Source of the DNA: Bacillota bacterium
Lineage (GTDB): Bacteria; Bacillota; SHA-98; Ch115
Length of the DNA: 64,000 nucleotides
Assembly: GCA_013178415.1 (NCBI GenBank)
Contig: JABLXA010000005.1
Span: 1 to 64,000, forward strand
Direction: 5' to 3'
Positions 26,055 to 29,324 of the stretch are shown here, one piece after another. The stretch's first letter is position 1. Every line of letters begins with the position of its first letter. Made by a program: the position numbers and the translations under genes. The notes beneath the pieces are model-generated. The model made no database searches and was not told where the DNA came from. It worked only from the letters and a program-made list of their open reading frames with translations.

Positions 26055-27948
26055 GCCTCAACATACGAGATTCTATCTGGGAAAGAATATGCGCTGCGAT
26101 TCTATCAGCGCGGAGTCCACACCTCTCGAGAAGTAGATCACGATCGCCATGCTCTACGAATCTGTCAGGTAGCCCAAAATGAATGATAGGAATGGAACCC
26201 AAACCGCGCTCATAAAGGGCATGGGTCACTCCTTCACCAAAACCTCCCGTCAGAATGTTCTCCTCTATGGTCGCAACCAGACGCGTCCTGCTTGCAAAGC
26301 GCTCTATAGTCTTCACGTCAATTGGTTTCGCTGCCCTTGAATTAATAACTGAAGCTCTAACTCCATTTTTGGATAAAAACCTAGCGCAGTCAAGGGCGAC
26401 CGTCACCATGCTGCCGATGGCTATCAAGGCAACATCATCGCCTTCCTTAACGACCTCACAAGATAAGGGATCCAAAGATGCCGATGCCCGTTTGCCCACA
26501 GTGAAAATAGGCCGCGCCGCGCTGCGTGGGTATCTTATTGCAACGGGTCCTCTTGCCAGAACCGCCCACCTCAACATATCCCGGAGCTCATTGCCATCAG
26601 CTGGCGCGAGAATCGTCATGCCTGGTATGGACCTCATATAAGAAATATCAAAAGCTCCGTGATGAGTGGGGCCATCCTCGCCAACCAGCCCCGCTCTATC
26701 TATGGCAAAGACAACATGTAGTTTTTGGAGCGCTACATCGTGTATAATTTGGTCATATGCTCTCTGGAGGAAGGTGGAATAAATGGCCACGATAGGGACC
26801 ATCCCCATGGATGCGAGGCCGGCCGCAAGGGTGACGGCGTGCTGCTCAGCTATCCCAACGTCGAAGAACCGATCAGGAAAACGGCTTGCGAATTGAGCGA
26901 GACCACTGCCATCAGTCATGGCGGCAGTGATAGCCACTATCCGCTGATCCTGCGATCCCAGCTCAACGACGGCATCACTAAAGAAATCAGTAAACCATGG
27001 TCCCGAAGTCGATTTGGGTCGCCCTGATGCAACATCGAACGGCCCGACTCCGTGGAATTTTCTTGGATCTTCCTCGCTCGGTCCATATCCTTTGCCTTTC
27101 TTGGTTATCACATGGATGAGGACTGGACCGCCCTTTTCCCTGGCATCTTTGATGGTCCGCTCAATGGCAATGATGTCATGTCCATCGATGGGTCCAAGGT
27201 AGGTAAATCCTAAATCCTCAAATAACATCCCCGGTATAATGAGGTATTTGATGCTGCCTTTGACACGCTTCACCGCGTATGACAGCCTATCTCCAACAGC
27301 TGGAATGCTCCCTACCAGCCGCTCCACATCTCCCTTTACTTGCCTTATCCTAGGATGCAGTCGTATCCGAGCCAGATAGGATTGAAGGGCGCCTACATTT
27401 TTTGAAATCGACATTTCATTGTCATTCAGTATAACGATCAGATCTTTCCCGATGTGCCCAGCATGATTGAGAGCCTCAAAAGCCATTCCCCCAGTCAAGG
27501 ACCCATCGCCGATAATTGCGATCACCGTGAACCTATCGCCTGCCAGATCTCTGGCAATGCACATGCCAAGGGCAGCGGAAATGGATGTACTGGAATGCCC
27601 TGTAGCAAATTGATCGTGTGGACTCTCATCAGGCCTGGGGAATCCGCTGATTCCGCCATATTTCCTAATTGTCTTGAACTCTTTGAGCCTGCCGGTCAGA
27701 ATCTTGTGGGCATAGCTCTGATGACCAACATCCCAGATTATCTTGTCATATGGGCTGTCTAGAGCCCGATGGACAGCGATGGCAAGCTCTACGGTTCCGA
27801 GACTCGGGGCAAGATGGCCGCCATTTTGTGATATAACTTCAACAATCTCCTCCCGTATTTCTTGGGCAAGCTGCTCCAATTCATGTATATTGAGATTCTT
27901 CAAATCCCGCGGCAGGTCAAGCGTATCAAGCAGCCTTGGCTGCGTCAC
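26032..27948 (-). CDS. dxs: 1-deoxy-D-xylulose-5-phosphate synthase
   Basis: 638 aa thiamine-diphosphate enzyme, first step of the MEP isoprenoid pathway. The TPP motif is IGDGSLTGGMAFEALNHAGH through NDNEMSIS. The N-terminal HLAPSLGTVELAIAVH, the transketolase-like EDGPTHHGAFDISYMRSIPG and the C-terminal ENILTGGFG are typical. Its start overlaps the oapA end by 4 bp. ispA, which uses its products, lies just beyond the OLE RNA. Confidence 0.98.
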   Translation of the reverse strand: MTQPRLLDTLDLPRDLKNLNIHELEQLAQEIREEIVEVISQNGGHLAPSLGTVELAIAVHRALDSPYDKIIWDVGHQSYAHKILTGRLKEFKTIRKYGGISGFPRPDESPHDQFATGHSSTSISAALGMCIARDLAGDRFTVIAIIGDGSLTGGMAFEALNHAGHIGKDLIVILNDNEMSISKNVGALQSYLARIRLHPRIRQVKGDVERLVGSIPAVGDRLSYAVKRVKGSIKYLIIPGMLFEDLGFTYLGPIDGHDIIAIERTIKDAREKGGPVLIHVITKKGKGYGPSEEDPRKFHGVGPFDVASGRPKSTSGPWFTDFFSDAVVELGSQDQRIVAITAAMTDGSGLAQFASRFPDRFFDVGIAEQHAVTLAAGLASMGMVPIVAIYSTFLQRAYDQIIHDVALQKLHVVFAIDRAGLVGEDGPTHHGAFDISYMRSIPGMTILAPADGNELRDMLRWAVLARGPVAIRYPRSAARPIFTVGKRASASLDPLSCEVVKEGDDVALIAIGSMVTVALDCARFLSKNGVRASVINSRAAKPIDVKTIERFASRTRLVATIEENILTGGFGEGVTHALYERGLGSIPIIHFGLPDRFVEHGDRDLLLERCGLRADRIAAHILSQIESRMLRHDSDVSG

Positions 27949-28607
27949 TCATCTCGCCCCCTCCTTATACGGTTACCATTAGAATCGTTATTACCCCCAC
28001 CAGATCTATTGTTTCTTCTCTCGTTGTTTTTAAATTTGCGCCTGCGTGATGCTTTGAGGTCATTTTCGAAAAATCTCAATCCCGTGACTCTCTCGAGCCA
28101 TTCCAACTGTCTCCCGATGAAAACCACGATGCCAGTAGCCTCATCCATGGCAAATCCCTTGCCGAAGGCCTTCCCGCTTACTGTCAAGGCAGCTACCAGA
28201 GCGGTCATAAGTATGGCGGAAATGTCTTCATCCAGATGCCTGTAAATGGTTAGTAGGCGGAAAACTATGCCCGCTCCGATAGCTCCACTGAGAGTACCAC
28301 AAATGTCCCCGACGACATCGTTGCAGAAATTCGCCACGCGATCTGCATTTCTCACTATTTGGATGGCTTTGCGGGAACCGGGGACCTTCTTGGTTGCCAT
28401 CGCGTGGAAAGGGCGTTCGTTTGCTTTCGTAGCCGCAACCCCAACGATGTCGAAAGCTATTCCCGTTATCACGATCACCGCCAGGACGATCAACCCAGGG
28501 ATGATCCCGATATGGCCTAATGCAATTTGGGAAATAAAAGCGAAGGTTATAGAAAGTGAAAAAGTCAGGATCCAGACACGTAGAGTCTGCCCCAACCTGC
28601 TTCGCAA
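27945..28607 (-). CDS. oapA: OLE-associated membrane protein OapA (probable)
   Basis: 220 aa with four hydrophobic segments (about residues 10-30, 33-57, 108-128 and 136-156). Between segments 2 and 3 is a cytoplasmic-type stretch with FDIVGVAATKANERPFHAMA and RVANFCNDVVGDICG. The C-terminal tail is very basic and Asn-rich. OapA proteins are four-helix membrane proteins with distant resemblance to DUF21/CNNM transporters, encoded directly downstream of OLE RNA and upstream of dxs; both placement and topology fit. The start is TTG 28607 with GAGGTGA at 28618-28624. The identification rests on synteny, topology and my memory of the family. Confidence 0.8.
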   Translation of the reverse strand: MRSRLGQTLRVWILTFSLSITFAFISQIALGHIGIIPGLIVLAVIVITGIAFDIVGVAATKANERPFHAMATKKVPGSRKAIQIVRNADRVANFCNDVVGDICGTLSGAIGAGIVFRLLTIYRHLDEDISAILMTALVAALTVSGKAFGKGFAMDEATGIVVFIGRQLEWLERVTGLRFFENDLKASRRRKFKNNERRNNRSGGGNNDSNGNRIRRGRDE

Positions 28608-28627
28608 GCTGTCATGTCACCTCAACT

Positions 28628-28664
28628 TAATAAAAGACCCCGGCGCGTTTTCCCACGCTCGGGG
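28628..28664 (-). terminator. Intrinsic terminator at the 3' end of OLE RNA
   Basis: On the minus strand CCCCG.GCGT, a GGGAAA loop and ACGC.C.CGGGG are followed by TCTTTTATT. It lies only about 4 bp from the oapA ribosome site, so oapA must be made by read-through or after processing. Confidence 0.7.
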
Positions 28665-29287
28665 CGGCGGGTGGCATCACGTTGAGTAAATATTGTGCCT
28701 TCAGGTCTAGCTAGTTTTCCTAGCGATACACCACAGCGTTACCGCCATGGCGGTTTCCCTTTACGATCGCTCCCTGATGTCGCCAGTCAGAGGGCTAGAT
28801 TGCCACTTAGTGCACACCGCAATCCCCAACGTGGCCCGATAGCGAACAGCCTAGGAGTTTTCCTCAACGGCGCCTTCCGACCTCTAGCCTCTTTTGCGAT
28901 CAGGCTTTCAGACACCCCCAAAATCCCCGGATATCAAATCCGGATAGCTCTAGGATATCATCCCGCGCTGACCGCGCAAGGCAGGCTACACTGCACCCAG
29001 CACAGCCTAGGACAATCGCTCCTGGTATAGCACCGAGTGCAGGTTTTATCCCAAGCCGTAATGCGTTCACTGAGCCAGGAGCACCACGTACTTGGGTCTC
29101 CGCGAAGACAGGGTCCACGCCCGCATGCCATTGCGGATCGCCCAATCTTCTTAACCCCCAGCACCAACCCCCGACTGGGCGTCGGAAGCCAGCACCAGGG
29201 ACTTCATCGATGTGCCCTTGACGGATTTTTAGGCCCGTCCTTGAGATCGGTGGCACCGACTAGGATACTGCGCCACCCACCCATGCA
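28628..29287 (-). ncRNA. ole: OLE RNA (ornate, large, extremophilic RNA)
   Basis: A 717-bp stretch without a credible gene lies between ispA and oapA, the conserved site of OLE RNA in Firmicutes. It has its own promoter (29294-29322) and an intrinsic terminator, giving an RNA of about 660 nt; OLE RNAs are about 600-650 nt. The sequence is full of stems: GGTGGC/GCCACC at the 5' end, CCGGAT/ATCCGG around 28926-28942, and a 3' stem capped by ACCGCCATGGCGGT. OLE RNA forms a membrane-bound complex with OapA and affects growth under cold, alcohol and Mg2+ stress. I cannot run a covariance model; placement, length and neighbours are the evidence. Confidence 0.85.
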
Positions 29288-29293
29288 GGTGAT

Positions 29294-29322
29294 ATTATAC
29301 CATATGGCGGCGACAGTATCAA
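29294..29322 (-). promoter_or_regulatory. Promoter of OLE RNA
   Basis: On the minus strand TTGATA (29322-29317) and a perfect TATAAT (29299-29294) are 17 bp apart. They lie directly after the ispA stop and predict a start near 29287. Confidence 0.8.
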
Positions 29323-29324
29323 GT

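Follow-up and report, generated by a model that had tools for sequence, protein, structure and literature searches.

Organization of the ole-oapA Region

On the minus strand of the window (the whole stretch of DNA analysed, 64 kb in length), an ispA-type polyprenyl (farnesyl) diphosphate synthase gene, recognized by a family match (30266-29325), is followed by a gap of 717 nt, by an ORF of 220 amino acids with a TTG start, here called oapA (28607-27945), and by dxs (27948-26032; TIGR00204, 797.9 bits), whose GTG start shares 4 nt with the oapA stop. The operon neighbors further on are tlyA (26054-25206; TIGR00478) and a NAD kinase gene (25209-24352). The original prediction had described a 717-bp non-coding gap within a dxs/ispA superoperon, and both the gap (28608-29324) and its neighbors, namely polyprenyl/farnesyl diphosphate synthase, Dxs, TlyA and NAD kinase, have been confirmed.

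The gap encodes OLE RNA, as had been proposed. The Rfam OLE covariance model (RF01071; gathering score 50 bits) matches positions 29292-28655 of the minus strand with 461.5 bits (E 2.9e-132), in an alignment that spans model positions 1-616 of 616 and is not truncated; it is the sole Rfam match in the 64-kb window, and OLE is present as a single copy in the 3.57-Mb, 100%-complete genome. The predicted transcript of about 660 nt (29287-28624, minus strand) is more stable, when folded as a 664-nt RNA, than its shuffled counterparts (z-score -6.1, 0/20). The same model matches in 51 of 61 related genomes, and the checks carried out among those suggested with the original prediction were all favorable to it. 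The OLE gene of the window is therefore real and complete and stands in its usual place, between ispA and oapA-dxs; the RNA class itself is not new. With respect to the RF01071 consensus, all the model positions are shared; the window copy is GC-rich, and the tip of its P8 is longer by about 25 nt.

A predicted ole promoter, TTGATA-17-TATAAT, is found at 29322-29294 on the minus strand; it agrees with the consensus at 11 of 12 positions, is the only match of this quality in the region and corresponds to the near-consensus promoter already noted. Within 75 nt before OLE, the best -35/-10 pair reaches a score of at least 9 in 85 of 106 distinct relatives, against about 12 expected from shuffles. 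Between ole and oapA, a terminator-like hairpin (28665-28637, minus strand; -21.2 kcal/mol, z -2.9) is followed by UCUUUUAUU. This hairpin is bulged, with 11 pairs, and was missed by a strict terminator pattern scan; a homologous hairpin, there unbulged and with U6, occupies the same place in the nearest relative (L003), so that the intrinsic terminator foreseen for the gap recurs. By the criteria used, any terminator-like hairpin was detected in 21 of 101 distinct ole-oapA gaps, and in this the window ole, which ends in a hairpin terminator, differs from most relatives, which have none before oapA. Judged from their sequences, both the ole promoter and the terminator are plausible.

An element that immediately precedes oapA in the same orientation, with a terminator-like hairpin at its end, has the layout of an attenuator, and the gap might on this basis be taken for a long 5' leader of oapA-dxs, that is, a cis-regulatory element and not an independent RNA. 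The OLE of Halalkalibacterium halodurans, however, accumulates as a separate RNA of about 630 nt acting with proteins (PMC9723947), and in two related genomes (G018 and G027, see below) ole and oapA reside on different contigs and are each still conserved. We consider a leader extremely improbable and treat ole in what follows as an independent RNA gene.

Fold of the RNA and Dimer Contacts

P7, P8 and P13, together with the conserved loops of P4, P5 and P6, are present in the window OLE, and the conserved single-stranded motifs of the RNA are intact; the conserved binding features of OLE are thus observed in this copy. Since P7, P8 and a long P9 are present, the RNA is, judged by its sequence, of the full-length type, and neither variant 1 nor variant 2 of Fernando and Breaker (PMC11332333).

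In cryo-EM structures, the OLE dimer is held together at the A-rich L4 loops, by loop-loop pairs of P5 with P6 and through the kissing of a symmetric P9 loop, the latter switching between palindromes in evolution (PMC12286853, PMC12265935). In the window, the P4 hairpin (29239-29220, minus strand, from the OLE model alignment) carries the conserved A-rich loop CCUAAAAAUCCG, the site of the A-A dimer contact known as bridge B1 (PMC12286853, PMC12265935). At the sequence level, L4 (CUAAAAAUCCG), the P5 loop (GCCCA) and the P6 loop (CAAUGGCAUG) are all intact, and almost all the relatives share the P5/P6 loop motifs.

The P9 arm (28960-28911, minus strand, from alignment and folding) is long, and its apical loop UUGAU (28937-28933) differs from a palindrome such as UGGCCA and is without the palindrome by which bridge B3, the published P9-P9 kissing contact, is made: no 4-nt palindrome lies within the loop, and GAUAUC spans loop and stem. 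A loop palindrome occurs in at least 69 of 84 distinct relatives with a long P9, a lower bound because the fold-based loop test misjudges some relatives (for instance L119, which has CTGGCCAG), while about 33 would be expected from shuffled loops. P9 is short or partly extracted in 21 of 105 distinct relatives; it is reduced to a short stem in the three nearest compared genomes, one of the same family (G001) and two of the same order (G002 and G003), and the next family in the class retains a GGCC loop. Natural OLE RNAs with a short P9 have been described as variant 1 (PMC11332333). A palindromic P9 loop is not a universal feature of OLE RNAs, and a copy without one still belongs to the class. 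Because short P9 arms are widespread elsewhere, the P9 change is read from these alignments as lineage-level variation and not as a unique feature. It is conceivable, though we hold it rather doubtful, that the OLE particles of this Bacillota order have given up P9-P9 kissing, the other contacts having stayed fixed. If this were true, these RNAs would be natural mutants from which it would follow either that P4 and P5/P6 contacts alone can hold the dimer or that part of the clamping has passed to the long basic tail of OapA.

A separate observation concerns P6 (29153-29090), in which the SD/anti-SD mimic reads CCUGUCUUC in the window, the corresponding motif of H. halodurans being a perfect CCUCCU. 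The anti-Shine-Dalgarno mimic is lost here, whereas in a relative of the same family (L115) the 5' strand of P6 carries AAGGAGGU.

The OapA Protein

The product of the 220-aa ORF had been proposed to be OapA, a four-helix membrane protein. Its match to the Pfam CNNM family (19.1 bits, E 0.0011) is below the cut-off of 28.4 bits, as has been published for OapA proteins in general. The AlphaFold model, built from a 61-sequence alignment (pLDDT 89), displays the four long helices that had been anticipated (residues 2-32, 35-61, 88-121 and 127-155), and the top five PDB matches of this model in Foldseek are all CNNM/CorC membrane domains, with probabilities of 0.97-1.00, the matches themselves being weak (best E 0.005, TM 0.41); when the OapA profile was searched against PDB sequences, only chance matches were obtained. 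D97, D101, K146 and K150 are invariant in 116 OapA homologues. From the D-x3-D spacing, rather than from an alignment with the H. halodurans sequence, D97 and D101 would be equivalent to D100 and D104, the residues changed in the PM1 mutant of H. halodurans OapA (PMC9723947). The CNNM/CorC fold, the invariant residues and a perfect co-occurrence with OLE together bear out the assignment to OapA.

The CNNM-like fold and the four invariant residues are shared with other OapA proteins (e.g., WP_213543803.1, annotated as 'CNNM domain-containing protein'), and the gene order ole-oapA-dxs-tlyA-NAD kinase is also that of Pusillibacter faecalis. The transmembrane fold resembles the membrane domain of the MpfA/CorC/CNNM Mg2+ transporters as well (7m1t, 7cff) but, unlike these, OapA possesses neither CBS nor CorC_HlyC domains. 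The window OapA differs from other OapA proteins in its basic, Asn-rich C-terminal tail, rich in N, R and G, whose 47 aa after residue 173 place it near the maximum for 112 homologues (median 17, maximum 48). The tail had been called unusually long, and this holds for its length; it is not unusual in kind, being the extreme of a continuum in which basic tails of 20-48 aa are common. The last 20 or so residues are of low confidence in the AlphaFold model, and that the tail contacts RNA is a guess.

Partner Proteins and Anticorrelation with MpfA

OLE and OapA are found in an identical set of 51 of the 61 related genomes, and the same 10 genomes are without both. The other known partners, sought by family searches of the genome, are encoded at separate loci. 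A 94-aa KOW-type ORF lies between map and infA, and its only significant PDB match in phmmer is 7k9b, 'OLE-associated protein B' (E 5.9e-12); an 85-aa L7Ae protein is encoded between rpoC and rpsL, and its best matches are the YbxF structures 3v7e and 4lck. The names of the flanking genes were read off the translated ORFs, with a family model applied to infA only. YbxF is OapC (PMC9723947), and both OapB and OapC, which the original prediction had suggested looking for elsewhere in the genome, are thus present at their usual loci. The genome also encodes bS21. OapB, OapC and bS21 are common but not universal in OLE bacteria.

No protein with a CNNM domain or a CorC_HlyC domain (MpfA) was found in the 100%-complete genome of the window. 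In the set of 61, 13 of the 51 genomes with OLE encode a long-frame CorC_HlyC protein, versus 9 of the 10 without OLE (Fisher p 0.0002), a distribution in line with the published anticorrelation between OLE and MpfA (PMC11332333).

Relocated, Mobile and Decaying ole Copies

In some relatives ole has left the oapA locus. In G018, ole is located on a different contig from oapA, and a c-di-AMP riboswitch (RF00379, 92.7 bits) lies about 205 nt downstream of it in the same orientation, ahead of a gene for an NlpC/P60 cell-wall hydrolase (the whole arrangement at L135, 10822-9186, minus strand); this is a single case, and a connection of OLE with c-di-AMP has been the object of speculation (PMC11332333). 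In G027, ole is found inside a prophage remnant (L137, 4148-6983, plus strand) that retains pieces of the portal, minor head and scaffolding genes. The scaffolding piece runs into OLE, and oapA, on another contig (L138), has kept its ispA-dxs surroundings. In both of these genomes a divergent PAP2 (DUF212) gene is found between ispA and oapA, at the place where ole would be (L136, 4966-5424; L138, 3887-4336).

A phage or plasmid origin of OLE, suggested by the G027 arrangement, was considered and rejected, as no phage match and one plasmid record only were obtained. OLE had no match in 50,697 phage records, and none was found in IMG/VR with two exact patterns, which may miss diverged copies. 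The sole plasmid record with an OLE match is a 504-kb replicon of P. faecalis, typed as conjugative and with the ordinary ole-oapA-dxs order; here (L139, NZ_AP023421.1, 196848-204971) an ole-like stretch, with 77% identity over 19% of the window OLE, precedes oapA-dxs-tlyA-NAD kinase.

Joint decay of ole and oapA can occur. In G029 (L128, 1501-2490), an OLE without P4-P6 (169.9 bits) adjoins an oapA whose frame is interrupted by stop codons and shifts; the assembly contains an N gap and a duplication at this point, and the genome encodes a full-length MpfA-type protein. This example, together with the loss of the palindrome from the P9 kissing loop, might suggest that the window OLE is itself a decaying relic, still recognizable in sequence and with its function gone. 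Such a reading is very improbable in view of the full-length 461.5-bit match with its single-stranded motifs intact, the good promoter, the intact oapA with all the invariant residues and the failure to find an MpfA substitute in the genome.

Proposed Role and Significance

The region is best explained as an ole-oapA locus specifying a membrane-bound OLE-OapA particle that works with OapB, OapC and bS21 and has a role in stress, a reading to which we assign a probability of about 95%. Speaking against it are the weak CNNM and Foldseek matches of OapA, the missing P9 contact and the altered P6 mimic. The sequences themselves show the identity of the RNA, its co-occurrence with OapA and the presence and conservation of the parts, whereas transcription, binding, localization and stress role are extrapolated from the work on H. 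halodurans. By analogy, OLE would have its own promoter as a start of transcription, with a probable further contribution of read-through from the ispA operon; the transcript would end at the hairpin terminator and adopt the conserved OLE architecture. Binding to OapA, the CNNM-like product of the next gene, would then hold the RNA at the cell membrane, where OapB (at P13), OapC (at the P5 kink-turn) and bS21 (at P6), supplied from other loci, would join it. The resulting particle may assist the cell under stress from cold, alcohol, Mg2+ or poor carbon sources, and its likeliest way of doing so is an adjustment of metal-ion physiology and of membrane or translation physiology.

Among the structured RNAs of bacteria that have, to our knowledge, no known chemical activity, OLE is one of the largest, and each well-formed example with its partners aids comparative work. 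The window OLE alone leaves the existing knowledge of this RNA unchanged. It comes from a poorly sampled lineage and is accompanied by the whole set of partners, with no MpfA found in the genome and one published dimer contact lost, and it is thus a useful natural variant for testing which of the dimer contacts matter.
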